From NCBI RefSeq assembly GCF_000023905.1, contig NC_013192.1, positions 1,178,001 to 1,242,000 of the forward strand: a DNA stretch of 64,000 nt, given 5' to 3'. A program made the position numbers and the translations under genes. Positions 2,675 through 53,627 of this stretch are shown piece after piece (position 1 is the first letter of the stretch; every line of letters starts with the position of its first letter). The stretch comes from Leptotrichia buccalis C-1013-b (GTDB lineage: Bacteria; Fusobacteriota; Fusobacteriia; Fusobacteriales; Leptotrichiaceae). The notes under the pieces were generated by a model, which did no database searches, was not told the origin of the DNA, and saw only the letters and a list, made by a program, of their open reading frames with translations.

Positions 2675-3067
2675 CTATTCATATTTTACAAACTTTACAT
2701 GCTCAAAATAACTTATCTTTTTTACAATTTCACCTTCTTTTATTTCTTCAACATTTCTTTCAGTATAACTATATACAGGAATTAATTCATTTTCTATTGA
2801 CCATTTTACAAGATTATATGTATATCCCCAGTTACCTTGAATCAGAATTATATCATCTTTGTTAAAATTTTCTTTAATAAATTTTTTTATTTTTTCCAAA
2901 TTTTCTTTATAATTTTTCTTTATTGATACATTTGACCACATATTCTGTAATTCTTCAGGTAAATTTTTAATTTCTTTTACTTTGTATTCTTCAACCAATT
3001 CTTTTTTCTGATTCTCTGTTAATTGATGCGAAAATACTAATAGTACCTTTTTTTCTTTTTTTTTCAT
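2675..3067 (-). CDS. csx20: Csx20 family CRISPR-associated protein
   Basis: A 130-aa cytosolic protein with a good GAGGAG site before its ATG. The N-terminal LLVFSHQLT motif, the middle LPEELQNMWSN and the later LIQGNWGYTYNLVKW fit the Csx20 family as I know it. I recall recent reports that Csx20 degrades cyclic oligoadenylate (a ring nuclease), but that cannot be read from sequence alone. It lies directly upstream of the tandem CARF-HEPN RNase, so it would suit switching that effector off. Its C-terminal two thirds clearly align with the C-terminus of the 8175-10253 protein, for example the shared KK-I-EN, D--LI-G--G-T---V-W pattern. Confidence 0.75.
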   Translation of the reverse strand: MKKKEKKVLLVFSHQLTENQKKELVEEYKVKEIKNLPEELQNMWSNVSIKKNYKENLEKIKKFIKENFNKDDIILIQGNWGYTYNLVKWSIENELIPVYSYTERNVEEIKEGEIVKKISYFEHVKFVKYE

Positions 3068-3578: not shown

Positions 3579-4581
3579 CTAAAATATTTCTACAAAAAAA
3601 TCAACAACTCCACTAATTATATTTTCTCCTACTCCAACTATTGCTCCACCTACTGTACCTATTACTCTTCCAACTGAACCTAATCCTATTAAACTTCCTA
3701 TTGCTTGACCTATTGTTCCACCTATTGCCATTCCTTTTGTTACTGATTCCACAAATTTCTCTAAAACTTCCGCTCTGTAATCTTGTAAATCATCATTATC
3801 TTTCCATATAATTTCTTCCTTATTCATATTTTGTGCATAAACTAATCTCTTTTCTTCTGGTGTACATTGTAATATGTAGTATAATAATTTTGATAAATTG
3901 TATGTTTTTGTTGTATATATCCTTCTTCTTTTTCTCCAGCACTGTAGTAAATTGGCTCTGTGTCTATTCCTGTTGCTTCTTTTATCCTTCTTTTTACTGA
4001 TATTACTTTATTTTCCAAAAATTCTTGCAATTTCTTTTCAGGTCTATTTTCTTCCGTATTCCAATATTTACCTTTCATCGCTACATCCGCCTGATTTATC
4101 GCAACCAATATCCTATTTTCCTTATTATCCCCTAAATTCGGTATTATTACATTATTTATCAATTCGTATGATGTTCCCAAATCCCTGCTACTTCCATCCA
4201 AAATTACCAAAACCAAATCAATTAACAAATTATCATTTTCATCTTTTTCATAAAGTTTGTCAATTATTCTTTTACTATGCTTGTTATATGCTTCTTTTCC
4301 ATCACCTAATCCTGGAGTATCCCATATTACTAAATTATCCAACTCATATTTATCAATTTCCGTCGTTTCTGGATCTGCACTTATTCCTACTTTGCTACTT
4401 CCTTACCAAATAACGCATTAATTGTACTGCTTTTTCCTACTCCTGTTGCACCTGTTACCATTAAATTAATTCTTTGATTTTTCATTCTCAACAAATTCCC
4501 TAACAATTTTTGTCTTGTTTTCTCATCCATATTTTCACGCATAACATTTTTTTCAATTTCCTTAAATATATTTTTCCTCAT
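3579..4581 (-). pseudogene. YfjP-like GTPase with glycine-zipper tail, copy A, two frameshifts
   Basis: Read across two frameshifts this is one protein of about 330 aa. The first part (start 4581) carries the P-loop GATGVGKSS and breaks just after FGKEVA, where one base is missing compared with copy C. The second part has DTPGLGDG (G3) and NQAD (G4), followed by YYSAG. A second shift near 3925 separates it from the tail, which reads YNLSKLLYYILQCTPEEKR and continues in frame into the 82-aa ORF at 3579-3827. That tail is a glycine zipper (IGGTIGQAIGSLIGLGS) and probably inserts in or binds a membrane. Pieces may still be translated separately, because the tail ORF has an ATG, but no good ribosome-binding site is visible there. 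Confidence 0.75.
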
Positions 4582-4862: not shown

Positions 4863-5555
4863 TTATGCTCCTATTAACTGCCTTTTTTCCAAAATTATAT
4901 TATCTATTATAAAATCTAGTAATTTTTCTATGTTATAACCATATTCTGCTGAATAATATACTGGTTTTCTTATTGTTACTCCTGTTGCTTCTTTTACCCT
5001 ATTTTGTATAGATATCGCTTGTTTTTCTAAAAAATCTACTAACACTTGATCTGGTCTATTTGTTTCTTTATTCCAGTGTCTGCCTTTCATTGCCATATCC
5101 GCCTGATTAATTACCACTAATATCCTATCTGCCTGTATATTTGGAACTATCACTTCATTTAATAATGTATATGTACTTCCCATATCTCTATTTAATCCTT
5201 CCAGTACTACAATTGCCAAATCTACCCAGCCATAGACATTTCCATCCAATGAATAAGTTTTATATAATAAATTTACTAATTTTCTTTTATGAATTTCATC
5301 GTTCTTAACACCATCTCCCAATCCTGGAGTATCCCACAATCTAAATACATCATTTAATGAATAAAATTCCAGGCTCATTGTTTCTGGATCTACTCCGTTA
5401 CCAACTATTGCCACATTTTTTCTAAAAATTGTATTTAATGTTGTTGATTTTCCTGCTCCTGTTACTCCTGTCACCATTACATCCAAAGGCATAAATCTTG
5501 CTTTTTCTAATTTTTTTTCTATATCCATTTTTCTATAATCTCTAAAATTTGTCAT
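4863..5555 (-). CDS. YfjP-like P-loop GTPase, copy B (intact, no zipper tail)
   Basis: A 230-aa intact GTPase with P-loop GVTGAGKST at 30-38, G3 DTPG at 75-78 and the non-canonical G4 NQAD (usually NKxD) at 150-153. The family is the YfjP/YeeP type (COG3596), often found on mobile elements; its cellular role is poorly known. It aligns with copies A and C through the end of the GTPase domain (YNIEKLLDFI, EKRQLIGA) and then stops exactly where the glycine-zipper tail begins in the other two. The protein is thus a soluble, tail-less version and could pair with a separate small membrane peptide such as the 73-aa neighbour. It has its own well-matched island promoter. Confidence 0.85.
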   Translation of the reverse strand: MTNFRDYRKMDIEKKLEKARFMPLDVMVTGVTGAGKSTTLNTIFRKNVAIVGNGVDPETMSLEFYSLNDVFRLWDTPGLGDGVKNDEIHKRKLVNLLYKTYSLDGNVYGWVDLAIVVLEGLNRDMGSTYTLLNEVIVPNIQADRILVVINQADMAMKGRHWNKETNRPDQVLVDFLEKQAISIQNRVKEATGVTIRKPVYYSAEYGYNIEKLLDFIIDNIILEKRQLIGA

Positions 5556-5687: not shown

Positions 5688-6149
5688 CTAATTTTCATTT
5701 ACAATTTCCCCATTTTTCAATGAATAAAATTTTTGATTGCTTGATCCGAAAAATTTTCCTTGTATTCTCAATTCATGCATATATTTTCCAACTTTTAAAT
5801 ACTTTAATTTTTTCAAAATATTTCTTGAGACATCTTTAAAATCATAGGAGGTATAAAGTGCTATTTCAAAATCTTTTTCATGCATTTCATTAATAAATTC
5901 TTCCAAGGCTTCCTTTTGCATTAAAGGTTCTCCACCTGAAATAGTAATTTTTTTTACTGGCAAATTATAAGACATTATTTCATCACACAATTTTTTTACT
6001 TCATATTCCCTACCTGTTCGGATGTCTTGGATTTCACTATTATGGCAACCTTTACATTTCACATTACAGCCTTGAAAAAATACTGTTAATCTAATTCCTG
6101 GTCCATCTTCATATCTGTTTTTTTGAATTGATGCAATTTTTACTTTCAT
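5688..6149 (-). CDS. Radical SAM activating-enzyme-like protein (NrdG-type)
   Basis: A 153-aa protein with the radical-SAM [4Fe-4S] motif CNVKCKGC (CxxxCxxC) at about residues 29-36 and the SAM-binding TISGGEPL. Size and layout match the activating enzyme of anaerobic ribonucleotide reductase (NrdG), which makes a glycyl radical on NrdD. No nrdD or other glycyl-radical enzyme is in the window, and the chromosome uses NrdEF here. It may therefore activate an unlinked partner or modify a peptide from the island. I chose the ATG at 6149 because GGAGGT lies 7 nt upstream; a start 10 codons earlier overlaps that site. It has an island-type promoter. Confidence 0.75.
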   Translation of the reverse strand: MKVKIASIQKNRYEDGPGIRLTVFFQGCNVKCKGCHNSEIQDIRTGREYEVKKLCDEIMSYNLPVKKITISGGEPLMQKEALEEFINEMHEKDFEIALYTSYDFKDVSRNILKKLKYLKVGKYMHELRIQGKFFGSSNQKFYSLKNGEIVNEN

Positions 6150-6183
6150 TTTATACCTCCGATTATGTATTTTTTTCATTATT

Positions 6184-6242: not shown

Positions 6243-7318
6243 CTAAAACCATCCTCCAAAAAAACTTCCAATTGCATCACATACACCTTTCACTGCACCT
6301 ACAACTCCACCAACTGCTCCACCTATTACCGAACCAACTGCCGAACCTACCTCTTCTCCAATTTCTCCAAATATTCCACTAATTGTCCCACCTATATTTG
6401 CTCCTGCGTCGCTTCCTTCCATCCTTCCATCCGATATACCTTCTGTCACATTCGCTACACCTTCTGATAACACTTCAACTGCTGCTCCAAAAATAGTTTC
6501 TAAAATATCTCTTCTATAATCTTTTAAATCGTCATTATCTTTCTACATTACTTCTTCTTTGTTCAAATTTTGTGCATAAACGTACTCTTTTTTCTTCTGG
6601 TGTATATTGCAATATTATAATAATTTTGATAAGTTATATGGTTTTTGTTATAATTCTCCTTCTTCCTTGTATCCTGCACTGTAATAAATTGGTTTCACTT
6701 CTATTCCTGTTCCTTCTTTTATTCTTCTTTTTACCGATATCACCTTATTATTCAAAAATTCTTTTAAAATACTTTCAGGACGATTCTCTTGTTCATTCCA
6801 ATATTTCCCCTTCATTGCTACATCCGCCTGATTTATCGCAACTAATATTCTGTTTTTTTTATTTTTACCTAAATTGGGTATTATTATATTATTTATCAAT
6901 TCATACGATGTTCCCAAATCTCTACTTCCTCCATCCAGTATCACTAAAACCAAATCAATTAACAAATTACCATTTTCATCTTTTTCATAAAGTTTATCAA
7001 TCATTTTTTTACTATGTTTATTATCTGCTTCTTTTCCGTCACCTAATCCTCGAGTGTCCCATATTACCAAATTATCCAGTTCATATTTTTCAATTTCCAT
7101 TGTTTCTGGATCTGCACTTGTTCCTATTCTTGATACTTCCACTCCAAACAATGCGTTTATTGTGCTGCTCTTTCTACATCCTGTTGCACCTGTACCATCA
7201 AATTAATTTTTTGTTTCTTCAATTTCAATAAATTTCCCAATAATTTTTCTCTTACTTTTTTATCCATTTTTTTACTCATAATAATGTTTTCAATCTCTTT
7301 TAACAAATTTCGTTTCAT
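6243..7318 (-). pseudogene. YfjP-like GTPase with glycine-zipper tail, copy C, heavily decayed
   Basis: This is the third paralogue and is broken in several ways. A base is lost just before the P-loop, so the N-terminal frame from the ATG at 7318 ends early. The P-loop reads GATGCRKSS and G3 reads DTRGLGDG, both damaged. Stop codons and shifts follow the GTPase domain near 6660. In the tail, the Trp codon found in copy A after NKEEII is a TAG stop (NKEEVM then stop). The glycine-zipper part (IGGTISGIFGEIGEEVGSAV) remains open at 6243-6473. The largest intact GTPase piece is 6648-7151. Confidence 0.8.
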
Positions 7319-8174: not shown

Positions 8175-10253
8175 CTAGTACTCTCTAAATTCTGTTTTTG
8201 TCAGAAAATTATCTTCCTCTTTTTTAAATTCATAAATTGCGATTATTCCTGTTTCTTTTGCCCAGCCTACTATATCAAAAGTTATTCCTGTTTCTCCATT
8301 TATTAAAAGAACATCGCCTGGCTCAATGTTTTCTTCTATTATTTTTTTAAATCTTTTAATATTTTTTTCTTTATTGTTATCATTTTCAAGATTTTTCCAT
8401 TCTTTTTCAGTTTCAGCAGTTAATTTTCTTATTTTCTTAATTTTAAATTTTTTTATCAATTCTGTTTTTTCATCTTCATTTATTATAGATTTAAATATCA
8501 AAATTTTCCTATCTTCTTTATTTGCGACTATGTTTACCTCTTTTTTTACTTCAGAAATTATTTTATTTGATAAAGTTTTATTTTTAAACGCTTCTATAAA
8601 GACTTTGTTCATTAATATGTTTTGTAGATGTCTTATTTTTTTTATAATCTCTATTTCCGTAATATTTATACTATTATTCTTCACTTCCAAAAAAAGTTTC
8701 ATCAACATAGATAATTGCTCTTTTTTTAATTTCTGTTCAAAATTTTCCTTCTTATTATCCAGCCAATTTTTTACAACGTTTTTATTTTCTCCTGATTTTT
8801 GTACATTAAGTTCTTTAAATAAAAAATCATATATACCATTAGATATTATTCTTCCAATTTCTATAAATTTTCCTTCTTCGGCTAGTTTTTCTAAATAAGT
8901 GTATGTTGATTGTGATTGAAGATTTTTAGATTGTAAAATCTTATTTGAATACTCCATTTTAAATATTTCTCTCAATTTTTGTATATTTTTTGAAATTTTT
9001 GAAATAATATCTTGCATTTTCGCCTTATTTTCCAATGTATGTGATATGTTATTTCTAATAATTCTAAAGTTTTCAAAAATCTTGCTCAATTCTATTCTAT
9101 TTTCTATTTCTTTCTCTGATAATTTTTTGTAATTTACTCTATTTTCTTCATTTATTCCATTTATCCATTCCCTCAATTTATCCTTACCTTTATTTATATC
9201 CTCAATTCCTAAAATTTTTCCTGCGAAAGTATAAATTGCTTCAACAATATTTACAAAACTCATTGAATATCTTTTTTGATTATAATGCCATTCTGCTAAA
9301 TTCAGTAACATTTCAAATGTATTTTGCTCTTTTCCAAAATTTTCTGCAAATCTTTCTAAAATATCTGGTAATAGCAACTTAGCAGGTCCATCCAAAGTCT
9401 TTATAATTTCTTCTATTTTATTAATTTTTTCAATATTTTCCTTTATATTCCCAATGTAATTCATATTCATAGAATTTGAAAATTCTTCCATGCTATTTTT
9501 CAGCTCTTCATTAGTAAGCATATCCAAAAATTCATAACTATTTCCATATTCCTTAAAAGCATTCGCTCCTTTAATCCATTTCATCAGGTCATAAAAAGGT
9601 TTCAAATTTATTACTGATGCTACTTTTATTAAATTTCCTTCATCATCTATATCATCATCCATTTCTTCTAACATACCATAAGTTATTGTTTTTATCTTAA
9701 TATTTTTATCAATAACATCTGTAATATAATTCATTACCAAAAACATCCACATTGCATTCGATCTAAAAGAATGTGTTATATCCAAATAAATTTCATCATT
9801 TATATTTAAAGAATTTATTATTTTCATAATTTCTGAAAAATTTTCAAAAATTTCATCTGCATCCATTCCATATTTAGTTACAATAATTTCCACATTTGAA
9901 AATTTACTGTTAAACTTATCTGCATCTATTAAATTTACTTCTGTATTTTTATTAGCTTTTTCTGTAATACTTCTTAATTCCTTTTTATATTCCTCATCTA
10001 TTGTTATTTTATTTTTTTCACAATAATGCACATACAGTTTATCCCACATAGATCCTGCTGTTCCAATATATATAGTTTTATCAATCTCATAATGTTTTTC
10101 CAAAACTGCTGTAACAAAATATTCATCTTTGTATATCTTATACGTTTTCAAATCTTCGTTTTTTATTCTATAATTCGCTTTTCTGTAATCTCTTTCATTA
10201 CTATGAATATCTATCATACCTTTTCCCAATCCCGCTATCAGTATCTTTGCCAT
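8175..10253 (-). CDS. CARF-HEPN ribonuclease fused to a Csx20-like domain
   Basis: A 692-aa protein. The N-terminal TM1812-type CARF (about 1-215) has GTAGSMWD at 64 and DITHSFRS at 158. A HEPN domain follows with RNNISH at 400-405, the catalytic R-x4-H. Residues 440-560 are a second helical region without an intact R-x4-H. Residues about 581-690 align with the free Csx20 at 2675-3067 (W at 619, LINGETGITFD, VGWAKE, IAIYE), although the HQLT motif of free Csx20 is absent. The arrangement joins a cyclic-oligoadenylate-activated RNase to a possible ligand-degrading or ligand-binding domain. AAGGAG precedes the ATG. It is the first gene downstream of the CRISPR remnant. Confidence 0.85.
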   Translation of the reverse strand: MAKILIAGLGKGMIDIHSNERDYRKANYRIKNEDLKTYKIYKDEYFVTAVLEKHYEIDKTIYIGTAGSMWDKLYVHYCEKNKITIDEEYKKELRSITEKANKNTEVNLIDADKFNSKFSNVEIIVTKYGMDADEIFENFSEIMKIINSLNINDEIYLDITHSFRSNAMWMFLVMNYITDVIDKNIKIKTITYGMLEEMDDDIDDEGNLIKVASVINLKPFYDLMKWIKGANAFKEYGNSYEFLDMLTNEELKNSMEEFSNSMNMNYIGNIKENIEKINKIEEIIKTLDGPAKLLLPDILERFAENFGKEQNTFEMLLNLAEWHYNQKRYSMSFVNIVEAIYTFAGKILGIEDINKGKDKLREWINGINEENRVNYKKLSEKEIENRIELSKIFENFRIIRNNISHTLENKAKMQDIISKISKNIQKLREIFKMEYSNKILQSKNLQSQSTYTYLEKLAEEGKFIEIGRIISNGIYDFLFKELNVQKSGENKNVVKNWLDNKKENFEQKLKKEQLSMLMKLFLEVKNNSINITEIEIIKKIRHLQNILMNKVFIEAFKNKTLSNKIISEVKKEVNIVANKEDRKILIFKSIINEDEKTELIKKFKIKKIRKLTAETEKEWKNLENDNNKEKNIKRFKKIIEENIEPGDVLLINGETGITFDIVGWAKETGIIAIYEFKKEEDNFLTKTEFREY

Positions 10254-10826: not shown

Positions 10827-12126
10827 GAGACAGAGTAAAAAATATAGGGGCAGTCATTAAATACCACAACAAACTTTTTTGACTGCTTTTTTTAAAATAT
10901 TTTACTTTGTGATATTTCTTTCAAAACTTCCCTAATCGGACATTCTCCTCCTCTCAAATATGGAATGTTTGTGCTTTTCTCTGCTTCATTAACAATTTCT
11001 GGCAAGCATTCCATCTCTATTATCTTTTCTAGTGAACTCGTTCTTTTGTCGCTAAAGTACAATTCATACGCTTTTTCCCTATTTTTTCCATAGTTTGCAA
11101 AGAAAGTGTGGTATAACGCTCTTGCCTTTATCTTTCTCAAGCCACCTGTAAAGATTTTTTGATACTTCCTTGTCCTTCTTGGAAATTTCAACTATAGCTT
11201 TTACTAGATGAAACTTGTCATAAATGTGTATTGGATTGTAAATCCTAAGCTCCCCTACAAAGCTGTCTATCCATATTCCCCCATCAGAGTTCACAATCAG
11301 CTTCTTCTTGTCCATATTGTATCTCTTTTCAAGATAGTTAAGCACATATTCCGACACTTCCTCAAGCGGTACGGATGTAGGAAACATTATTGTGTGTTTG
11401 TCAATAAGTTTGTTTCTGTCCCTGCAGATTTCCTCAATTCCACGATGTATTGAAACCAACCTCATATATGTGTTTTTACTTCTTCTGCACTTCATATGGT
11501 CTTCATCAATCTCCATATATACTGGCGAATCGTCATCCCTTTCAAATCTTTCAATATCAAGTTTCGGCATTTGAAAAGAATTGACAAGATTATACACAGT
11601 AGCCCTTGAAACACCGTAAGTTTTTGCAAGAAATGAAGCCGTGGCATATTGATACTCAAAAAGTATAGTAAAAATCAGCTCCTCAGAAAGCCTTTTGTAC
11701 CGCTTAAGCCCAATTTTTTCATCAATGTAGTAGTGAATGCCTGTTTTCTTGTCTACATATTTTCGACGTTCAAAAGTGACATGCCCGAAAGCAGTAGTAA
11801 CAGTTCTTTTAACAAATCCTTTGCTTTTAAATTTATCTTTTCTTTCATCGGAATGAAAAAAGGCACCATCAACTCTTTTGACATAAACTCTAAACAGCGT
11901 TTCAAAAGCTTTTGTGACAAACAGCTTAAACTGCTGCTCAAACGGAAGTCTGAAAGAAAAAATATTTTTAAAAAAAGTCTTTACAAGCGAGGAAAAATTT
12001 GATATTCTAATCATAGAGGAAACCATCTTTCAATAGGATTTGGCGATTATATTGTAACTGGCTTCCTCTTTTTTGTTAATTTGAAATTTAATTAAATTTA
12101 TTTGCTCCTATATTTTTTACTCTGTC
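10827..12126 (-). mobile_element. ISLre2-like insertion sequence, decayed
   Basis: Perfect 21-bp inverted repeats mark the ends: AGACAGAGTAAAAAATATAG plus G at 10828-10848, and its complement at 12107-12127. A 9-bp direct repeat TTGGATATT at 10818-10826 and 12127-12135 is the likely target duplication; it overlaps the right repeat by one base. The element carries one broken UPF0236-type transposase gene and lies between the CRISPR leader and the nrdF terminator. Confidence 0.8.
10892..12026 (-). pseudogene. ISLre2 family (UPF0236) transposase, frameshifted
   Basis: The upstream part (11079-12026) has the helix-turn-helix region FLAKTYGVSRATVYNLV and the DDE-type core MEIDEDH, VNSDGG and YDKFHLVKAI. 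The downstream part (10892-11191) is in another frame and holds the C-terminal CLPEIV, GGECPIREV. The two overlap around 11080-11190, so a one-base shift near an A-rich run joins them. Even joined (about 378 aa) it is shorter than typical members, so an internal deletion is possible. Confidence 0.75.
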
Positions 12127-12140
12127 TTGGATATTTTTTC

Positions 12141-12176
12141 AAAAAAAATGAGAACCAATAATTAAAGCTCTCATTT
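12141..12176 (-). terminator. Terminator of the nrd operon
   Basis: The stem AAATGAGA/TCTCATTT has a T-run on the minus strand and lies just after nrdF. Confidence 0.65.
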
Positions 12177-12192
12177 TGGTATGTTTCCAAAC

Positions 12193-13200
12193 TTAAATTA
12201 AATCATCCGCATTCACGTCTTCATCAAACTTAAAGTCATCATCATGCAAATGCACCACTTCCAACGCCTTTTCATAATTCGTAGATTTTTTAGAGAAAAA
12301 ATCATGCTGAGTTGTTTCTACGTTTAATCCATTTAGCACAATTGGATTTACATTTTTTACTTCAAATTCTTCTTCAAATCCTAAATTCATCAAGGCTTTA
12401 TTCGCATTATAACGGATGTATTCCTTCACATTGCCTGTAAGCCCCAAATCACCATAAATTTCATCAGTATATCTTGTTTCATTTTCATATAAATCGTACA
12501 TCAATTTTTTTAGTTCAGCTCTCATATCAGCTTTTTCCTCTTCGCTGAAAGAATTGTATAATTCCTGGAACAATAATCCTACAAAAACTCCGTGAATCGA
12601 CTCATCAGCTATGATTTTCTTGATTATATCGCAACTTGCAACCATTTCTCCCTGTCCTGCAAGCCAAAGCGGCAAAAAGAATCCGCTGTAAAACAAATAT
12701 GTTTCCAAATAAACCGAAGCCGCCAGAGCCATCGCAATATCTCTTTTTGAAGCCTCAGGATTATTCATTTTCTGATAATATGTATCAATTTTATTGGCTT
12801 TATACTGCAAGTGCGGATTTTCCTGAACCCATCTGAATGTTTCATTAATCTCTCTTGTAGATGCAACCGTTGTAAATATTGTCGAATAAGACTTTGCGTG
12901 AATCGTTTCCATCATACACATATATGAAAGCACCGAACGATTTTGCAGTGACTCAATATGATCAATAATCTTCGGCATCCCCGTATGGCTCTGCAATGTA
13001 TCTAAAAGTGTCAATCCTCCCAGTACATGCAAATACGCCAATTTCATCGCAGGCTCAAGCGAATTCCAACTATCAATATCCTTCGACGGAATATACTCCG
13101 TATCAATCCAAAACTGCTTCAAATTCTGTTCCCAAAACATCTCTACATAATCATTTTCCGGTGTGTTCCAGTTTACTGCCTCATATATTTTTTTCTCCAT
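12193..13200 (-). CDS. nrdF: Ribonucleotide reductase class Ib, beta subunit
   Basis: A 335-aa radical-generating subunit. The metal ligands are in place: D67 (LTLLD), E98 and H101 in METIHAKSY, a later YLET glutamate, and the ADESIH pair. The radical Tyr is Y105, at the same number as in Salmonella NrdF. It pairs with NrdE to reduce ribonucleoside diphosphates and needs NrdI to assemble a dimanganese-tyrosyl cofactor. It is the last gene of the operon and is separated from nrdE by the HEPN gene. Confidence 0.95.
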   Translation of the reverse strand: MEKKIYEAVNWNTPENDYVEMFWEQNLKQFWIDTEYIPSKDIDSWNSLEPAMKLAYLHVLGGLTLLDTLQSHTGMPKIIDHIESLQNRSVLSYMCMMETIHAKSYSTIFTTVASTREINETFRWVQENPHLQYKANKIDTYYQKMNNPEASKRDIAMALAASVYLETYLFYSGFFLPLWLAGQGEMVASCDIIKKIIADESIHGVFVGLLFQELYNSFSEEEKADMRAELKKLMYDLYENETRYTDEIYGDLGLTGNVKEYIRYNANKALMNLGFEEEFEVKNVNPIVLNGLNVETTQHDFFSKKSTNYEKALEVVHLHDDDFKFDEDVNADDLI

Positions 13201-13308
13201 TTTTTGCCTTCTCCTTTTCTCTAGTTTATTTAATATTGTATAAAATATCCAAAGCCATAAATATTGTTAGATTTAAATTTTAACATATTGATAAATATAT
13301 CTCATAAT

Positions 13309-15752
13309 TTAAGAATTTAAATATTTTATAATTTCTGTTATAAGCAGACTCATTTCATTATCTAATTCAAAACTAGTTTTAATTATCTTCATGCTCTTCA
13401 TTAATTCTTTATTTTCAAAATTACTACGAATTCTATTTTTTATATACGAAAAAAATTGTGATGAAATAATTAAATTTCTAATACTCTTAAGTTTATTATT
13501 ATCTAAGTATTTTTCATAAAGAGGATTGAATATCCAATATAAAATTCGTGTAGCTTCATAACTTACAAATAATCCAGATTTAAACTTGCTTAAATTAAAT
13601 CTTTCTCTTGTACCATTTAAATCATTAATTAGACAATCCATATTAATTTCATTACTTCCGTTATACTTTTCACTTTTTTTTATTCTATCAAAAGTTTCTT
13701 CAATATATTTTTGAGCTGTATCTATCTCATTTGTTTCAGAAATTGTGTGAATAATAGAATTTAAATCATACAATAATTCTAAAGCAAAAATTTCACTTTT
13801 TATATCCTTTACATTATCAACCAAAAAATCATAATTTCCATGTGCAACATTATTTCTTATTAAACTATTAAAATAATATTTGAAATATGCTATCGTATCA
13901 AAAAACATATTTAAATTCTTTTTAATTCCAAAATCTATTTTTTGAACTAAATCAATATTCATTATTTTATTATAAACTTCAATATCTTGACAATATTCAT
14001 ACATTAAAGAATATTCTAAGAAGTCTTTGAATAATCCTTCAATTTGAATAGGTAAAATATTTATTACTACTTCATAATCTTTATTTTCAATTCCATTTAT
14101 AATTTTTTCAATTATTTTTTTTCTTTTTGATAAACAAATTGAGTTTGAAATATTATGTTTAATATTTGCTATTGCTGTACTAGAATTTTTTCTCAATATG
14201 TTTAAATAATCTTTTTCATTTTTATTATATTTTTCTAGATTTATTGGGTTTAATGGATGATTTTCTATTTTTAAGTTAATTTTTTCAATAATAGTATTAT
14301 TATATTCTTCATCAGACAACTTTAAATTTCTTCTTCCTATATTTTGAATATTATCATAATACGGAATAAATTTTATATTATAATATATTTTATTTAAAGT
14401 ACTAATAGGAATTTCCGCTAATAAAAATTCAAATTTCCTTATTATTTGATTATAATATGAAATTCTATAATCAATTTGGTTTTGAGAAAATAAAGAGAGT
14501 TCTTTTATTTTTTCATTACTAGAAAAGTTTTTAAAAAAAGTTTCTAGTTCTTTCATATAGAATATTAATAATCCTGATTCTATATTTTCTTGATTTTTGA
14601 ATAAAACTTCCAATTTTCTTCTTTTTATATAATTTTCTTTAAGTTTCACGACTTCTATATCTTCTAAAATCCCCTTTCTGTTGTATCTAGATTTTTTTAG
14701 TTCATTCAATTCTTCTTTTACTTTATCTATTAATTCCTCAATTTTCTTTTTTAATATATCATACTTTTTTAAAATTTCCCCAAATTTTTCATTAACTAGA
14801 ACATATCTATCAACTAAATTACCAGTTAAATCAAAACAATTATAAATTTCTTCATAATATTCCTCTTTTGTATGAGGGATTTTTCTTGAATTAAAATCAT
14901 ATTTTCTCATTTTTTTTAAAGTTATTTTTATAAGATTGTCATTAGAATTTTCAATTTTTTTATTTATCTTTTTAAATAATAATTTCCCTTTTTTGACATT
15001 ATTATTCTTTTTAAATAATCCTATTTCAACTTGATCAAAAACTTCATTTTTTATATTATTTATATAATTTTCAATTTCTATAATTTTATTAAATTTTTTA
15101 GGATTTATTTTATATAATAAACAAAAATATTTTTCAAAATTTTCAGATTTGTAACCAATCTCAGAAAAAATAATAATCTTTTCTATCAATTTTTCTAATT
15201 TATTTTTATTATCTATTAATTGATAATTTTTAAAATAAATATTATCATTTATTATTTCTAGTAAAAAAACTTCATATTTAAAATATTCAAAATTAGTGTT
15301 TACAAAATAATTTACAATTTCTCTCAAAAAATCATTTATTTTTTGTAATTCCTTATTTTCTTCATAAGATAAAATGATTGCTTTGTATACAATATGCTGA
15401 CTTAATGGATTTGTCTGGGAAAATATATAATTATTAAGCTTGTCTATATTTTTTTCATAACTATGAATTATTTTTGACAAAGTCATTATAAATAATTGTA
15501 TATTAACTCTAAAATTTATAAATTCAAGAATTTCTAATAAAAAATCGAAAGTTTCTATTATTCTAAATTTTAAAATTAAATGCAGTATCATATGAAACTC
15601 TTCAATTTCTTCAATTTCTTTTTTTTCTATTATTTTTTTTAATTTTAAAATTAAATAAGATGTAATTTGTGGAATATTATTTTCTATTACATCAAAAGCT
15701 TCCTTTGATTCATTAATATTAAAAATTATATCTATTGCTTCATTTATATCCA
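13309..15752 (-). CDS. Large HEPN-motif protein inserted in the nrd operon
   Basis: An 814-aa protein, far more AT-rich and Asn/Lys/Ile-rich than the flanking nrd genes. The first 500 residues are mostly helical with a coiled-coil-like stretch at about 325-360. Near the C-terminus, VINILPIQIEGLFKDFLE (about 566-582) and then LIRNNVAHGNYDF contain an R-x4-H motif (R633-H638) typical of HEPN RNases in abortive-infection proteins. AAGGGAG precedes the ATG at 15752, only 16 nt after the nrdE stop. It therefore uses the operon promoter and is probably an acquired defence gene. Its exact family is not recognised. Confidence 0.75.
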
Positions 15753-15768
15753 TTTGCACTCCCTTCTC

Positions 15769-17868
15769 TTATACCGAACATGAAATACACTCCTCAATCG
15801 TAGCCTTTCTCGTTCTCGTATAATAAAGCGACTTCAACCCCAGCCTATGTGCATAAATATAAAGTCTAGCCAAATCCCTAGTACTATCTGTACTCTTCGT
15901 ATACAAAATAGTTGATATTCCTTGATCTACGTGTCTTTGGATTACAGAAATTAGTTTCAAGATATTTTTTTGATTCATATCGTATGCTGACTTATAGAAG
16001 AAGTAGTTGTCGTTTGTTAAGTAAGGCATTGGGTAGAATGTTGTACTGTCTCCGTATTCTCTTACTTCGATTGTGTCAACTACTGGCATTACTGAGGCTG
16101 TCGAGTTCATTATGTAGGATGTTGACTGGTTTGGGGCGATTGCCATTCGGTAGGCATTGTAGACTCCGTGTTTCATTACTTGCTCTTTTAGGTTTGCCCA
16201 GTCTTCTTTTGTTGGGATGCAGATTCCTTCAAATAGCTGTTTTATTTTTTCTGTTTGTGGCACATATTCTTTTGTAATGTATTTGTCAAAGTAGTTTCCG
16301 TTGGCGTATTCAGATTTTTCAAAGTCCTTGAAAGTTTCGCCTTTTTCTTTTGCAATTTCCATTGAACGTTCCAATGAATAGAAATTTACCATCATAAAGA
16401 ATACGTTACAGAAGTCAAGCGCTTCCTTGCTTTCGTACATAATAAAGTTTTTAGCCAAGTATCCATGCAGGTTCATTGCTCCCAGCCCTACTGAGTGCAG
16501 TTCGTCGTTTGCTTTTTTTATTGACGGAACAATATCAATGTTTGTCAAGTCTGATACCATTGTAAGTGAATCAATTGCCGCTTTTGTGGCTTCTTTTATT
16601 CTTTTGTTTTCCATTACTGTAGCAATATTTAATGAACCTAAATTACATGAAATTCCACGTCTTATCGTGTCTTCTTCATAATACGCATTAATATCTGAAA
16701 CTTCTGATAATTGCATAATTTCAGTACACAAATTTGAGAACTTAACTGTTCCAATTTCTTTTAATGCGTGTTCCTTATTTGCATTATCTTTAAAGAATAA
16801 ATAAGGATATCCACTCTCTTTTTGAGTTTGAGAAATTTTTACAAGAAGTTCCCTTGCGTTTATTTTTTTCTTTTTAACATTTGGATTATCAACCAGTTTT
16901 TCATACATTTCGTTCATATCCATTTCATCCAGATATTGTCCATATTCTAGGAATACTGTGTGTGGATTAAACGTGTAGCAAACTTCATCTTCTATTGCCA
17001 ACTGCATAAATTTATTTGGAACGATAACTCCGATTGACAATGATTTTATTCTGATTTTCTCATCTACATTTATCTTTTTACTATCCAAAAATTCATTAAT
17101 ATCAGAATGGAAAACATTCAAATAAACCGCTCCAGCTCCAGCTCTTTGTCCTAACTGATTTGCATACGAAAAAATATCCTCTAAAATCTTCATAATCGGC
17201 AAAACTCCAGAAGCTCTTCCTTCCACACCTTTTATCGCTTCTCCTCTTGCTCTGATTTTAGAAAGGTTTATCGAAACTCCTCCACCAATTGAAGACAATT
17301 TCATAGACGAATCAAAAATATATCCAATTCCGCTCAAATTATCTCCCATTTCATCAAGAAAACAAGAAACAAGCTCTCCAGAACGTTTTTTTCCAGAATT
17401 TAAAAAAGTTGGTGTAGCTGGCTGATATTCTTGATTTATCAACATCAAAGCATACTCTTTTGCCTTTTCAACATTTCCCTGTGCTAAATAAAGCGAAACC
17501 GTAGCAATCCTATCTTCATATCTTTCCAAGAATTTCTCCCCAGTGTCATCCATCAAAGCATAACTTTGATAAAATTTCGATGCACTCATAAACGAAGCAA
17601 ATCTAAACTTCTTATCATAAACCAGCTTAAACACTTCCTTTATCTCATCGTGGCTATACATCTCATAAAAATTAATATAATAATCATTTTTTATCAAATA
17701 TCTCATCTTTTCCTCAAGATTGTGAAAAAACACCGTATTTTTATTCACATAATCTACAAAATACGAATAAACAGCCTCCTTATCTTTCTCAAGCTGAAAA
17801 TCCTCCCCTTGTTTTACCATTATTTCGTTATTTAGGTATATCCATTTTTTTGCTCTTTTATCTACCAT
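15769..17868 (-). CDS. nrdE: Ribonucleotide reductase class Ib, alpha subunit
   Basis: A 699-aa catalytic subunit. The active-site redox Cys is in VSCFL (C169) and the catalytic triad is in NLCTE (N379, C381, E383). The C-terminus is CISCSV, the shuttle Cys pair reduced by NrdH. There is no N-terminal ATP-cone, as expected for class Ib. GGAGAT precedes the ATG. It follows nrdI by 23 nt. Confidence 0.96.
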   Translation of the reverse strand: MVDKRAKKWIYLNNEIMVKQGEDFQLEKDKEAVYSYFVDYVNKNTVFFHNLEEKMRYLIKNDYYINFYEMYSHDEIKEVFKLVYDKKFRFASFMSASKFYQSYALMDDTGEKFLERYEDRIATVSLYLAQGNVEKAKEYALMLINQEYQPATPTFLNSGKKRSGELVSCFLDEMGDNLSGIGYIFDSSMKLSSIGGGVSINLSKIRARGEAIKGVEGRASGVLPIMKILEDIFSYANQLGQRAGAGAVYLNVFHSDINEFLDSKKINVDEKIRIKSLSIGVIVPNKFMQLAIEDEVCYTFNPHTVFLEYGQYLDEMDMNEMYEKLVDNPNVKKKKINARELLVKISQTQKESGYPYLFFKDNANKEHALKEIGTVKFSNLCTEIMQLSEVSDINAYYEEDTIRRGISCNLGSLNIATVMENKRIKEATKAAIDSLTMVSDLTNIDIVPSIKKANDELHSVGLGAMNLHGYLAKNFIMYESKEALDFCNVFFMMVNFYSLERSMEIAKEKGETFKDFEKSEYANGNYFDKYITKEYVPQTEKIKQLFEGICIPTKEDWANLKEQVMKHGVYNAYRMAIAPNQSTSYIMNSTASVMPVVDTIEVREYGDSTTFYPMPYLTNDNYFFYKSAYDMNQKNILKLISVIQRHVDQGISTILYTKSTDSTRDLARLYIYAHRLGLKSLYYTRTRKATIEECISCSV

Positions 17869-17891
17869 TATCCTATCTCCTATTTATTTTA

Positions 17892-18263
17892 TTAATTATT
17901 TTCCAAATACTTGATATAATTTTCCACTTCCGTACTTGTTCCCGACAGCTCAAATTTCATCAATACTGGAATTCCGTATTTTTGCTGAATTTTATCAGCT
18001 GCTAGTGCGAAAAATTGTCCCCAGTTTCTGTTTCCGCTGGAACTTACTGATTTTAATAGTTTACTGTTGTTTTCGTTTTGTAGAAATTCGTCTGTTGTTG
18101 TTGGAATTTCTCCGATTTTTGTTGTAAATGTTAGAAAATGTCCTTCATTTTTGATTACCATAGTTGGATTTATTTTTATAAAATGCCAGTCTGGACGTTG
18201 GGATTGCATTTTTTTTGTGAAACGGTGGACGTTTCCTGTTTTTGAATCGTAATATATAAACAT
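17892..18263 (-). CDS. nrdI: NrdI flavodoxin-like protein
   Basis: A 123-aa protein with IYYDSKTGNVHRF (FMN phosphate loop) at the start and SVSSSGNRNWG in the middle. NrdI supplies superoxide for assembling the NrdF manganese cofactor. I prefer the ATG at 18263, which has AAGGTG upstream, to the in-frame ATG 18 codons earlier whose extra residues would overlap a strong hairpin. Confidence 0.93.
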   Translation of the reverse strand: MFIYYDSKTGNVHRFTKKMQSQRPDWHFIKINPTMVIKNEGHFLTFTTKIGEIPTTTDEFLQNENNSKLLKSVSSSGNRNWGQFFALAADKIQQKYGIPVLMKFELSGTSTEVENYIKYLENN

Positions 18264-18291
18264 AGTTTTCACCTTAATTTTTTTTATAAAA

Positions 18292-18377
18292 ATATACTCA
18301 AAATTATTTGATTTCAAATAGTTCTTTCCTTAAATAATCTGAGTATATATAAAAAACTGTCTTTGATAGTACAGTTA
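18292..18377 (-). promoter_or_regulatory. Two hairpins between nrdH and nrdI (possible attenuator)
   Basis: On the minus strand the first structure is AACTGT/ACAGTT with a T-run (18376-18351), which looks like a terminator. The second is a long stem, about 17 bp with small defects, between 18292-18309 and 18332-18348. Together they could make nrdH much more abundant than nrdIEF, or give conditional read-through. Confidence 0.5.
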
Positions 18378-18398
18378 AAATTTTTAAATTGTATTTTT

Positions 18399-18638
18399 TT
18401 ATATCATTGAAATAATTTCGTTAATTTCTTCTGGCTTAAATCCAATTGTTCTTTTTATTTCTTTATTTTCTTCAAATAAAATTACAGTTGGAACACTTCT
18501 TACTCTGTATTTTACAGCCATTTCTGGATTGTCGAATGGATTTACTCTTTCATATTCTACACCTTTTTTATCTAATAAGTCTGACACCATTGCACATGGG
18601 TTGCAGTCGTTTTTTTCAAATTTTACAATTCTTCTCAT
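18399..18638 (-). CDS. nrdH: NrdH-type glutaredoxin/thioredoxin
   Basis: A 79-aa thioredoxin-fold protein with redox motif CNPC at about 12-15, RSVPTVILF holding the cis-Pro, and the C-terminal GFKPEEI. As first gene of the nrd operon it is the likely reductant of the NrdE C-terminal Cys pair. GGAGG precedes the ATG. Confidence 0.85.
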   Translation of the reverse strand: MRRIVKFEKNDCNPCAMVSDLLDKKGVEYERVNPFDNPEMAVKYRVRSVPTVILFEENKEIKRTIGFKPEEINEIISMI

Positions 18639-18669
18639 TTTATTATTTTCCTCCTAATTTAAAAGTAAA

Positions 18670-18717
18670 ACACAATATCTTGTGTTTTTTGTAATTTTTT
18701 TATAGCATATGTAGTGT
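18670..18717 (-). promoter_or_regulatory. Tandem NrdR boxes upstream of nrdH
   Basis: Box 1 (18670-18685) is ACACAATATCTTGTGT, an almost perfect palindrome matching the NrdR consensus. Box 2 (18702-18717) is the weaker ATAGCATATGTAGTGT. Their centres are 32 bp apart, about three helical turns, the usual layout for dATP-responsive NrdR repression. The rest of the gap up to asnS holds only the asnS promoter. Confidence 0.75.
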
Positions 18718-18874
18718 ATCGTATTTTTAAAATTTTTGCAACAATATTATTTTTAATTTTTGATTAAACAAATTATTGGGAATATTTTATATTAATAATT
18801 TAAAAAATGCTATAAGTTATCTCAAAGTTTTTATATTTTTAAAATTTATTATTAAAATATGTAGGAAATTGTGT

Positions 18875-18880
18875 TATAAT
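18875..18880 (+). promoter_or_regulatory. -10 of the asnS promoter
   Basis: TATAAT sits in the context TGTTATAAT, an extended -10. It is about 105 nt before the chosen asnS start; no clear -35 is needed. Confidence 0.5.
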
Positions 18881-18981
18881 GTGAAAATGTAGAGAATAAT
18901 CAAAAAAATTATATAATTTAGAGAAAGGAGATGTGTGAATATTTATATAGATTATTTCTATATTTAGTCATACAGAGATAT

Positions 18982-20370
18982 ATGTTATTAGAATTAAGGG
19001 AACTTCAAAAGAATACAAAAGAGTATTTAGGAAAAGAAATTGAAATTAATGGTTGGGTAAAAAAAATTAGAAGTCAAAAAAACTTTGGATTTATTGAGTT
19101 GAATGATGGAACTTTTTTTACTGGGATTCAAGTTGTGTTTGAAGAAGGATTGGAAAATTTTGAGGAAATTTCTAAACTTACGATTTCGACTTCAGTTAAA
19201 GTTACAGGAATTGTAGTAGAATCAGTAGGGAAAGGGCAGGCTTACGAAATTAAAGCAACAAAAATTTCTGTTTATCAAAAAGCTGATTCAGATTATCCGT
19301 TGCAAAATAAAAGGCATTCATTTGAATTTTTGAGAACGATTGCACATTTACGTCCTAGAACTAATGCGTTTTTTGCAACTTTTAGAGTACGTTCAATTTT
19401 GTCTTATGCAATTCATAAATTTTTTCAAGAAAAAAACTTTGTGTATGTGCAAACACCTATAATTACTGGAAGTGATGCAGAAGGTGCTGGAGAAATGTTT
19501 AGACTTACGACGCTTGATATAAACAATATTCCAAAAACTGAAAATGGAAGTATTGATTTTAAACAGGATTTCTTTGGTAAAGAGGCAAATCTTACGGTTA
19601 GTGGGCAGTTAAATGTTGAAACTTTTGCAACTGCATTTAAAAATACGTATACTTTTGGGCCTACATTCAGAGCTGAAAAATCGAACACTCCAAAACATGC
19701 TGCGGAGTTTTGGATGATGGAGCCTGAAATTGCATTTGCAGACTTGGACGTAAATATGGATGTTATTGAGGAAATGATAAAATACATTGTAAATTATGTA
19801 AGGGAAAATGCTAAGGAAGAAATGGAATTTTTTAATAAATTTGTAGACAAGGACTTGTTTAACAGGCTTGATACTTTAGTAAACAATGAATTTGGGAGAA
19901 TTACTTATACAGAAGCAATTGAAATTTTGAAAAATTCAAAACAGAAATTTGAATATGAAGTGGAATGGGGAATTGATTTACAGACTGAACACGAAAGATA
20001 TTTGGCAGAAAAACACTTTAAAAAGCCTGTATTTGTAACTGATTATCCAAAAGATATAAAGGCATTTTATATGAAGTTAAATGAAGATGGGAAAACTGTA
20101 AGAGCAGTTGACTTATTGGCACCGGGAATTGGAGAAATCGTAGGTGGAAGCCAAAGGGAAGATGATTATGAAATTCTTTTAGGAAAAATCAATGAAATGG
20201 GATTAAAAGAGGAAGATTACTGGTGGTACCTAGACTTGAGAAAATATGGAAGTGTGCCACATTCAGGATTTGGGCTTGGATTTGACAGAATGCTTATGTA
20301 CATTACTGGAATGACAAACATAAGGGATGTGATTCCGTTCCCAAGAACAACTAAAAACTTGGAGTTCTAA
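18982..20370 (+). CDS. asnS: Asparaginyl-tRNA synthetase
   Basis: A 462-aa class IIb synthetase. An N-terminal OB-fold anticodon-binding domain (about 1-110, [22 protein letters not shown] is its core) is followed by motif 2 ([21 protein letters not shown]) and motif 3 ([15 protein letters not shown]) near the C-terminus. It charges tRNA-Asn. I chose the ATG at 18982 because MLLELRELQ is where family proteins normally begin. An ATG 17 codons upstream lies directly against a GGAG and adds an unlikely hydrophobic extension. Confidence 0.93.
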
Positions 20371-41966: not shown

Positions 41967-42154
41967 CTACATTTATTTTTGACTCAATTCACTTTTACTT
42001 AGGACTTCAAACTATTATGATTACAAATATAAAAAAATTATTTTTTTAGTAGACTTTTCTAGTTTTTTATGTGATAATTTATTAAGTAAAATTAAGAAGA
42101 AATTTTTCACAAGTGAAAATTTATAAGAATAAAGAAGGGAGAAATCATTTAACA

Positions 42155-42919
42155 ATGAGAAATAAAGAAACTTTAGAATTAGTAACAAATGCTGCAAAAG
42201 GTAAAATAGGGTTTTTAAAGGAAAGTAAAGGGAAGTACTTCATGTCTGCATTTTTGGCTGGAATGTTTATTGGGATAGGAATTTTATTGACTTTCACAGT
42301 AGGAGGTGTTAGCAGTGGCTTGCCGACTAACAAAATTCTTATGGGAGTTAGTTTTGGGATAGCGCTTAGCCTTGTAGTTGTTTTTGGAACTGAGCTTTTC
42401 ACAGGAAATAATATGATTGGAGTAGCAGGGTTTTTAAACAAGGGAATAAGTTTTAAGGATATGATTCTTATGTGGGTAGCATCTTATGTGGGAAATATCG
42501 TAGGATCAATTATGCTTGCAATAGCATATGTATTTTCAAATTCTGCTTCAAAACCTGTTGTAGAATTTATTGTAAAGGTTTCAAAGGCAAAAATTACTGC
42601 ACTGCCGCACGAACTGTTTTTTAAAGGAATTTTATGTAATATTCTTGTGTGTCTTGCGGTTCTGGCTGGAATAAAATTAAAAGAGGAAACTGCTAAGCTA
42701 ATAATGGTATTCTGGTGTTTATTTGCATTTATAACTGCTGGATTTGAGCACAGTGTTGCTAATATGACTCTTTTAATGATGGGGATAATATACAATGGAG
42801 CAAAAGAAATAACATTAAATGGTTATTTTTATAATTTATTATTTGTAACATTGGGGAATATTGTTGGTGGAGCATTTGTTGGTTTTGCTTGCTATTATTT
42901 AGCAAAAAAGGATAAATAA
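42155..42919 (+). CDS. FNT family anion channel, probable hydrosulfide channel
   Basis: A 254-aa membrane protein with six predicted segments and FNT motifs (AGMFIGIGILL, FGTELFTGNNM, GILCNILVCLA, FEHSVANM). FNT channels carry formate, nitrite or hydrosulfide. It sits directly before asrABC, the arrangement of the Clostridioides difficile HSC (FNT3) channel, so HS- export is the best guess over nitrite. I chose the ATG at 42155 because GAAGGGAG lies 13 nt upstream. Confidence 0.82.
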   Translation: MRNKETLELVTNAAKGKIGFLKESKGKYFMSAFLAGMFIGIGILLTFTVGGVSSGLPTNKILMGVSFGIALSLVVVFGTELFTGNNMIGVAGFLNKGISFKDMILMWVASYVGNIVGSIMLAIAYVFSNSASKPVVEFIVKVSKAKITALPHELFFKGILCNILVCLAVLAGIKLKEETAKLIMVFWCLFAFITAGFEHSVANMTLLMMGIIYNGAKEITLNGYFYNLLFVTLGNIVGGAFVGFACYYLAKKDK

Positions 42920-42979
42920 TAATTTAAATAAAAAAAATAATTTTTAAATGGAGAGATAAAGTAAAATTTAGGAGGGAAA

Positions 42980-44140
42980 ATGAAAATCAGTTTAAATCGT
43001 GAAAATTTTAATCTGGCACTTGAAAAGCTGAAAAAAGAATACAAGATATATGCTCCAATTGAGATACCATTTCGTGGTACATTTTCAGATACTTCTGTAA
43101 TCAGATATTCTGAAATTGAAAAAATTGATGAAATATGTTTTGACAAAAAATCTCATTTTTCAGCAAAAGAAATAATGTTGCCAATAACACAAACAATGTT
43201 TTATTTTACAGAAGAAGGATGCAAGATGCCCAAAGAACAGGAACAAAAATATCTTATATTTCTTAGAAGCTGTGATTTACATGGTGTCAAAAGAGTTGAT
43301 GATATTTACTTGAATAATAAATTTTTGGATATTTACTACAAGAGGGTTAGAGATAAAGTTAAATTTGTAGTGTTTGGATGTCCAAATTCATTTGAGAACT
43401 GTTTTTGTGTAGATATGGGAACTAACAAAACTGATGAATACAATATTGGAATAAAAGTTACAGAAGAAGAAATATTTGCCGATATAAAAGATGATGAACT
43501 GAAGGTTTATTTTAACGAACTTATTGCTGAGAAAAATAATGGAAACGATGATGAGAATAAAATAAATGAAATGTATCTAGATGTAAAAGATGAGAAAATG
43601 AAAAAATATCTTGAAGAGATAATTGCTGAAAATAATAATAATAAAATAAAGGAAAATGTTGAATTTGAAATGGAATTCGTAGAAGATAATGAAATTCATG
43701 TGGATATTCCTGACAATATTGAGCTTGAAGATATAATAAATCTGGATTTATGGCGTGAATACGACAGCCGTTGCATAGCCTGCGGAAAATGTAACTTTGT
43801 TTGTCCAACTTGTACATGTACGACTACGCAAGATGTTTTTTACAGTGAAAATGAAAATAATGGAGAAAGACGGCGTGTATGGGCTTCATGTCACGTAAAT
43901 GGCTTTTCAGATATGGCTGGGGGTCATTCATTCAGACAAAGACATGGAGATAGAATGAGATTTAAGGTAATGCACAAAATATCTGATTTTAAAAAGAGAT
44001 TTGGATATCAGATGTGTACAGGGTGTGGAAGATGTGATGATGCGTGTCCTGAATACATTTCATTCTCAAATTGCATAAACAAGTTAAGTGCTGAACTAAA
44101 AAGAATTTCGGCTGAAAAAAGAGGTGAAGAATCAGAATGA
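42980..44140 (+). CDS. asrA: Anaerobic sulfite reductase subunit A
   Basis: A 386-aa Fe-S protein. Ferredoxin-type clusters are at C265-C268-C271-C275 (CIACGKCNFVC) and C346-C349-C352-C356 (CTGCGRCDDAC). It transfers electrons from AsrB to AsrC. Unusually, the centre contains an acidic internal duplication: 165-187 (IFADIKDDELKVYFNELIAE...) and 198-220 (MYLDVKDEKMKKYLEEIIAE...), which makes it longer than family members I know. AGGAGG precedes the ATG. It overlaps asrB by 4 nt. Confidence 0.93.
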   Translation: MKISLNRENFNLALEKLKKEYKIYAPIEIPFRGTFSDTSVIRYSEIEKIDEICFDKKSHFSAKEIMLPITQTMFYFTEEGCKMPKEQEQKYLIFLRSCDLHGVKRVDDIYLNNKFLDIYYKRVRDKVKFVVFGCPNSFENCFCVDMGTNKTDEYNIGIKVTEEEIFADIKDDELKVYFNELIAEKNNGNDDENKINEMYLDVKDEKMKKYLEEIIAENNNNKIKENVEFEMEFVEDNEIHVDIPDNIELEDIINLDLWREYDSRCIACGKCNFVCPTCTCTTTQDVFYSENENNGERRRVWASCHVNGFSDMAGGHSFRQRHGDRMRFKVMHKISDFKKRFGYQMCTGCGRCDDACPEYISFSNCINKLSAELKRISAEKRGEESE

Positions 44141-45015
44141 GTACAGTTAACACATTAAATACAATAAATATGGATGAACAAGCTATAATGGATATGAATG
44201 TATATTTACCGACTGTTCACAAACTTTTGTTTATTGAAAAAGTTACTGAGCTAGAATGGCTATTTCGTGTAGAATATAAAAAGGGAAGTGTAGAAGCTGG
44301 ACAGTTTATGCAGGTTTCATTGCCAGGAGTTGGAGAAGCCCCTATTTCTATTGCGAATTTTGACTTGGAGGAAGGTTATCTTGATTTTCTGATTAGAAAA
44401 GTTGGAAAAGTTACAGACAAGATTTTTGAACTGAAAACAGGAGATAGAATTTTTTTGAGAGGACCTTATGGACACGGCTTTCCAATTGAACAATATAAAA
44501 ATAAGCATATTGTAATGGTTGTTGGAGGAAGTGGAATTGCTCCAGTTCGCCCAATTATCGAATATTTTACAAAGCATCCTGATGAAATGAAGTCCTTTAA
44601 AATTATTGTTGGATATAAAAATTATGAAAGTATTATTTTTGAAGAGGAATTTTCACGTTGGAGAGAAAATATTGAAATACTTGTAACATTGGATAATGTA
44701 GAAACAGCAAGAAATATTGGAAAAACAGAAGACGAAATTCACGAAGGAATGGTTACCAAATACATTCCTGATTTAAAAATTCCTGAAAATATGGATGAAG
44801 TTGAATACATTGTTGTAGGCCCTCCAGTAATGATGCATTTTTCTTGCCTTGAAATCCTAAAAACAGGTATTCCAACTGAAAAAATATGGGTTTCATTTGA
44901 AAGAAAGATGTCCTGTGCCGTTGGAAAATGTGGGCATTGTAAAATTGATGAAACATATATTTGCCTTGAAGGGCCAGTATTTAGATATGATTTTGCAAAA
45001 AAATTACTTGATTAA
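44137..45015 (+). CDS. asrB: Anaerobic sulfite reductase subunit B
   Basis: A 292-aa NAD(P)H-flavin reductase-like subunit. The FAD region has GQFMQVSLPG and DRIFLRGPYGHGFP, the NAD site VVGGSGIAPVRP, and a C-terminal Fe-S set is seen in CAVGKCGHCKID and CLEGPVF. It passes electrons from NADH to AsrA. Confidence 0.94.
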   Translation: MSTVNTLNTINMDEQAIMDMNVYLPTVHKLLFIEKVTELEWLFRVEYKKGSVEAGQFMQVSLPGVGEAPISIANFDLEEGYLDFLIRKVGKVTDKIFELKTGDRIFLRGPYGHGFPIEQYKNKHIVMVVGGSGIAPVRPIIEYFTKHPDEMKSFKIIVGYKNYESIIFEEEFSRWRENIEILVTLDNVETARNIGKTEDEIHEGMVTKYIPDLKIPENMDEVEYIVVGPPVMMHFSCLEILKTGIPTEKIWVSFERKMSCAVGKCGHCKIDETYICLEGPVFRYDFAKKLLD

Positions 45016-45056
45016 GATATGAATTTTAAGAAAAAACAAAAGAAGAGGTAAAAACA

Positions 45057-47910: not shown

Positions 47911-48036
47911 TATATCTTGTTGTATCTTATACAAATAATCATATATCTTTTTAGGTTAGTTTATTAGTTTTATAAAAATAGTAAAATATAAAAAATTTAT
48001 AATTGATAATTTTATTACCTTATGCGATGGTTCTCG

Positions 48037-53623: not shown

Positions 53624-53627
53624 CTTT

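Follow-up and report, generated by a model that had tools for sequence, protein, structure and literature searches.

The window, that is, the whole stretch of 64,000 nucleotides of Leptotrichia buccalis C-1013-b DNA that was analysed, contains on its minus strand an operon for a class Ib ribonucleotide reductase (RNR), with genes in the order nrdH-like, nrdI, nrdE, X, and nrdF. The small thioredoxin-fold gene at the head of the operon (18399-18638) was named nrdH-like by reading its sequence, without a profile. The genes nrdI (17892-18317; as listed, the ORF begins with TTG, and an ATG is located at 18263), nrdE for the alpha subunit (15769-17868), and nrdF for the beta subunit (12193-13200) correspond to TIGR00333, TIGR04170, and TIGR04171, respectively. 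Upstream of the operon, a 16-bp palindrome, ACACAAGATATTGTGT, is present at 18670-18685 (no strand assigned), which is called NrdR-box-like here according to the consensus of that box. A search of positions 12000 to 19000 for an RNA element within the operon gave no Rfam match.

Gene X (13309-15753, minus strand) is an intact CDS specifying 814 aa, stop codon included in the coordinates, and constitutes the only cargo between nrdE and nrdF in this genome. Its ATG is located at 15753, with an in-frame GTG ahead of it at 15759. A first, sequence-only reading had placed the gene at 13309-15752 and 16 nt from nrdE; the start of this interval and the close spacing are correct, but the end is one base short and the nrdE stop codon at 15769 leaves exactly 15 nt ahead of the ATG. 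This nrdE-X spacer (15754-15768, minus strand, GAGAAGGGAGTGCAA) includes the Shine-Dalgarno-like AAGGGAG, so that the ribosome-binding site claimed for X is indeed present. On the other side, 108 nt separate X from nrdF (13201-13308, minus strand). The two spacers form the left and right junctions, respectively, of what turned out to be variable cargo. The gene is much richer in AT than its surroundings, as had been noticed before: its GC content is 0.181, compared to 0.338 for nrdE, 0.359 for nrdF, and 0.279 for the window.

Three parts can be distinguished in protein X, a helical N-terminal part (residues 1 to about 535), a HEPN-like core (about 540-700), and a C-terminal extension (700-814). 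Searches against Pfam, NCBIfam, PADLOC, and PHROG, including the search for a HEPN profile that had been proposed, yielded no family above the cut-off, and the sub-threshold matches to THOC7 (E 0.01) and phrog_37160 (E 0.029) look like chance. According to PMC3710099, the HEPN superfamily is marked by Rx4-6H with a polar residue after the arginine and by Ex3[KR], and includes DUF4209 as well as AbiD and AbiF. Both marks are found in X. The LIRNNVAHG stretch picked out in the sequence-only reading reads R633-N634-N-V-A-H638 and is unchanged in both known copies of the protein, and E572-G-L-F-K576 lies upstream of it, where hhalign aligns it with ENLVR of DUF4209. DUF4209 proteins (PF13910) share with X a long N-terminal part followed by C-terminal Ex3[KR] and RNxxAHG in the same order; X is about 200 aa longer, with about 110-170 aa behind the motif region. 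When X was compared by hhalign with a collected set of 14 DUF4209 HEPN proteins, residues 539-642 were collinear with DUF4209 from the conserved QIExxxK helix to RNNVAHG, a weak match (P 0.0033, Prob 9.8). An HMM built from the same 14 proteins gave X 3.3 bits, a score that nine of 3000 shuffles and a number of unrelated ORFs also attain, and PF13910 itself stayed below its gathering cut-off on X, with no match at E<=1. A relationship between X and DUF4209 is therefore suggestive only. Single-sequence AlphaFold2 models of the full-length protein and of residues 518-814 were helical, with pLDDT of only 36-37.

Further evidence came from comparing the two copies of X, in the window genome (G000) and in a second Leptotrichia species (G012). 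The copies differ at 2 of 158 positions within residues 540-700, compared to 62 of 653 in the remainder (p=1.2e-4, a somewhat optimistic value as the limits were set after viewing the X alignment and the hhalign span), and dN/dS is 0.03 in this region versus 0.34 in the rest. The HEPN-like region of X is thus under strong constraint. Taken together, the HEPN identity proposed for X agrees with both motifs and with this constraint, but it lacks a family profile, and its match to DUF4209 is weak. An adjacent antitoxin gene, which would be indicative of a two-gene toxin-antitoxin system, was found in neither carrier, X being alone in G000 and followed by unrelated genes in G012.

Among 98 Fusobacteriota genomes, X was detected in only two, both from Leptotrichia (2 of 13 species), and in both it is intact and located directly behind nrdE. 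The case that would have spoken against an acquired defence gene, X residing between nrdE and nrdF throughout the family, therefore does not apply, and the suggested search for X inside other nrd operons was successful in G012. Beyond G012, no X was found among 100 relatives or the 98 Fusobacteriota. No relatives were detected in phages or plasmids at E<=1, in the genome-contig and viral-contig collections, or among PDB sequences at E<=10. A profile of the C-terminal part gave only weak, scattered matches in 291 genomes (11 non-X loci); at five of these loci the ORFs were read, and they proved to be methionyl-tRNA-synthetase-like or otherwise unrelated, as named from reading.

The junction itself proved to be far more widely used than X. 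In all 13 Leptotrichia species, each represented by one genome so that the counts refer to species and not to gain or loss among strains, 1.5-5.7 kb of cargo, low in GC and differing in content, lies between nrdE and nrdF. NrdF was found in 32 of 33 Leptotrichiaceae genomes. Four of them show a different gene order, nrdF-nrdI-nrdE; among the other 28, the junction is occupied in 18 (0.5-5.7 kb; genera g1, g6, g8, and g11) and contiguous in 10 (17-49 bp; genera g2, g5, g9, and g10). The occupied genomes include five from three sister genera of Leptotrichia, with 0.5-5.0 kb. In 66 NrdE loci from named genomes, one was without NrdF, the 58 loci from Bacteroidota and Bacillota all showed gaps of 3-337 bp, and the remaining seven were Leptotrichiaceae or Fusobacteriales already counted (three occupied, four contiguous). 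These values bear out that the two genes are otherwise adjacent. The empty site asked for in related strains does not exist within the genus, where all 13 species are occupied, but four related genera possess it.

A limited number of genomic regions served as junction control. Across window 42113-46031, match coordinates show no interruption at three gene junctions in any of the 12 other Leptotrichia. The region 51617-56563 is continuous where matched in the eight other clade A genomes and in G002, while one of its junctions is rearranged in G004, G006, and G012.

To characterize the cargo, 20 proteins from the genus and eight from the sister genera were compared with Pfam, and PADLOC was searched with ten of the 28. 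Matches were obtained to the YafQ toxin, AbiH (in two genomes), Abi_2/AbiD, Fic of two kinds, the candidate PDC-M09B, a fused type II methyltransferase, and CBASS-type components, a SMODS-associated NUDIX protein and the C-terminal part of a cyclase whose N-terminal part is missing. PIN and DUF3800 matched below the cut-off, and the rest of the 28 proteins had no match. Other Leptotrichia species have HEPN abortive-infection proteins of the AbiD/AbiF (Abi_2) type in the same junction; X, unlike them, has no Abi_2 or AbiD match. In 16 of the 18 occupied loci, a match or cluster membership reveals one or more genes, or fragments of genes, of the Abi, CBASS, methyltransferase, Fic, or YafQ type; the two others are the window genome with X only and G017, whose gap of 0.5 kb is free of ORFs reaching 100 aa. 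Strictly speaking, neither Fic nor YafQ is a defence gene. Cargo GC is lower than that of nrdE in 18 of 18 loci (0.15-0.28 versus 0.29-0.35), nrdE being the only reference in this comparison, and the flanks nrdE and nrdF are common to all 13 Leptotrichia. The sequence-only reading had described a single odd insertion; what it missed is a site of variable occupancy with species-variable cargo, largely and at most sites of defence or toxin type.

The distribution of X and the identities of its flanks show how cargo reaches the site. At fourfold degenerate sites, G000 and G012 are 52% identical in NrdI (27 sites), 51% in NrdE (197), and 53% in NrdF (87), while X is 93% identical (112). Such a difference strongly supports the view that X moved laterally from one deep lineage of Leptotrichia to another, entering the same junction, and its acquisition, as had been suspected, can be considered well founded. 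The transfer between these distant species was recent. The block common to both genomes extends from about 40 nt within nrdE to just past the stop codon of X; beyond it they differ, G012 possessing three further genes. A block with YafQ is common to G012, G005, G010, and G001 and shows 95-100% identity in almost all 60-nt blocks as far as the nrdF start, with 90-97% in the last one, and in the first 300 nt past the nrdF start identity between G012 and the three others drops to 78-88%. For the Abi_2 and Fic cargo, copies at least 86% identical occur only at the nrdE-nrdF junction (next best elsewhere 56% and 69%), so cargo circulates through one address. Exchange may proceed via short shared ends, or by longer exchanges which were later overwritten by recombination within clades. 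A phage origin of the cargo was considered and set aside, since Fic and Abi_2 have no relatives in the viral contigs; NrdE-bearing viral contigs exist, with a best NrdE identity of 82%.

The start of the common block inside nrdE could also indicate that the junction is the attachment site of one family of integrative elements recreating the nrdE 3' end, and for the G000-G012 pair, the conservation of the last 14 nrdE codons is reached in only 2 of 287 windows. Over nine by three clade pairs, however, these codons are unremarkable, 61 of 287 windows being as high, and a general attachment site marked by synonymous conservation at the 3' end of nrdE was rejected on these grounds. No integrase family was matched in Pfam by the 28 cargo proteins, and the only mobility gene noticed, an IS30-like ORF in L026, was named from reading. 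An attachment site is therefore regarded as quite improbable. The position of X in the operon, where its expression would track that of nrd, might suggest a regulator or assembly partner of RNR recruited into the operon. This explanation, disfavoured already, is given hardly any weight: X is carried by two of the 13 Leptotrichia and two of the 98 Fusobacteriota genomes while nrdEF is found in 13 of 13 Leptotrichia, it was transferred separately from nrdE and nrdF, and unrelated genes take the same place in other species.

More attention is required by the idea of a neutral landing site, a spacer that tolerates promoterless co-oriented DNA and in which the commonest mobile Leptotrichia genes pile up, X having no defence role. 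The junction does gather debris, as much of the cargo outside the window genome is broken: Fic is split in L021, Abi_2 is truncated in L025, L026, and L028, and the cyclase in L024 is partial. The G017 gap devoid of longer ORFs fits as well. On the other hand, X is intact in both carriers, all 13 species are occupied, and near-identical cargo is re-used there and absent elsewhere. A dN/dS well below 1 for intact cargo across many strains had been set to speak against neutrality, and the one pair tested, X, shows such a value, with 0.03 in its HEPN-like region. A purely neutral site is consequently considered rather unlikely.

Orientation of the cargo provided a further clue. Of the ORFs of at least 100 aa in the 18 gaps, 58 of 59 are co-oriented with the nrd operon, compared to 60:38 in the flanks (Fisher p=1.9e-8, calculated with ORFs that are not independent genes, shared cargo being counted repeatedly). 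The single exception is a 139-aa ORF on the opposite strand in a decayed stretch of L028. Palindromes of the NrdR-box type, ACACnnnnnnnnGTGT, are located upstream in 16 of 18 occupied loci, and NrdR is present in all 13 Leptotrichia genomes. In view of the 58:1 bias, X and the other cargo are probably read through from the NrdR-boxed nrd promoter, and X may then respond to NrdR, as postulated at the outset. Terminator-like sites are scarce in the gaps, five sense (four of them one identical sequence in four Fic-bearing loci) and ten antisense in 61 kb versus 1.6 in shuffles; as such sites are rare on both strands, their absence lends read-through weak support. The class III enzyme NrdD is encoded in 13 of 13 genomes, and the notion of nrdEF as essential genes was dropped for this reason.

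From these data it appears likely that the nrdE-nrdF junction of Leptotrichia and its sister genera serves as a core defence hotspot within a metabolic operon, and that X is a probable single-gene abortive-infection HEPN effector. Cargo would be exchanged between species by recombination breaking at the 3' end of nrdE and at the start codon of nrdF. It is kept co-oriented and hence probably expressed by read-through from the nrd promoter with its NrdR-type box. Phage defence and RNase activity of X are predicted: the large helical N-terminal part may sense a trigger, presumably infection, whereupon the C-terminal HEPN domain with its Rx4H motif and DUF4209-like layout would cut RNA and growth would stop. 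Since X is alone in the junction of the window genome, it would act as one gene. A more far-reaching version, in which nrdEF is a dock for immunity coupled to dNTPs, can be put forward only tentatively. Interchangeable promoterless defence genes would be retained between nrdE and nrdF, infection draining dNTPs would relieve NrdR and raise both RNR and the effector, and X would represent a new HEPN family working alone.

The nearest known kind of locus is the core defence hotspot. PMC10250203 describes cDHS1 and cDHS2 of Pseudomonas aeruginosa as occupied in most isolates and suggests transfer by homologous recombination of the flanks. Conserved core flanks, variable cargo (anti-phage in P. aeruginosa), high occupancy, low GC, and the lack of a single mobile element are common to both. 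In contrast to cDHS1 and cDHS2, the Leptotrichia flanks are two subunit genes of one enzyme within one operon, and the cargo is small (0.5-5.7 kb including the sister genera), co-oriented, and probably under the operon promoter. Dedicated positions with varied defensive cargo are also shared with the defence-island integration hotspots of E. coli, which according to PMC10121019 are mostly filled by prophages, ICEs, and transposons, with 18 of 41 in tRNA loci and a median occupancy of 8%. The nrdE-nrdF site showed no integrase, and its occupancy extends to 13 of 13 species. No earlier report of a defence site between nrdE and nrdF was found in the open-licence literature as judged by titles and abstract openings. 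A hotspot between two subunits of one enzyme, with its cargo constrained in orientation, suggests that defence genes are able to make use of a metabolic promoter. It also offers a simple rule for detecting new ones, to look between nrdE and nrdF in Leptotrichia, with X, from a family absent from the four libraries searched, as the first candidate, and coupling of immunity to the dNTP state becomes a testable question.

A number of additional features were noted in the nrd operons of relatives. In G005, a 523-aa SIR2_2 protein is encoded between nrdI and nrdE (L020 10805-12376), a second interruption of the operon. The nrdE genes of G002 and G022 (L026, L061) are mosaics, with some stretches resembling clade A and others clade B; the nrdI of G002, unlike its nrdF, is close to clade A. 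In L028 (8634-11738; Pfam) and L029 (the same 1034-aa frame), from G001 and G006, nrdE is interrupted in frame by about 335 aa that carry intein-splicing and LAGLIDADG domains. Apart from Leptotrichia, a DUF4209 protein is encoded in phage record ON470601 (L171 343-2274) between replication gene A and portal gene Q of a P2-type phage, an interval known as a defence-gene site in such phages.

Within the window, a UPF0236/ISLre2-type transposase gene, below the NCBIfam cut-off and perhaps cut short, is located directly behind nrdF (11079-12026). A CARF-HEPN protein (PADLOC CARF_HEPN_CSX20) is encoded at 8175-10253, and its relatives lie directly behind nrdF in G003 and G002. A TM1812-like CARF-HEPN protein below the cut-off (454-2619) and Csx20 (2675-3067) are encoded as well. 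Three small GTPase-like genes or gene fragments related to each other (3842-4581, 4863-5555, and 6648-7151) have relatives in G010, and an NrdG-like radical-SAM gene (5688-6179) is situated amid them. A stretch of about 68 bp at approximately 47960-48027, which is not a tRNA, has no Rfam match, and shows no stable fold, recurs many times across Leptotrichia genomes.
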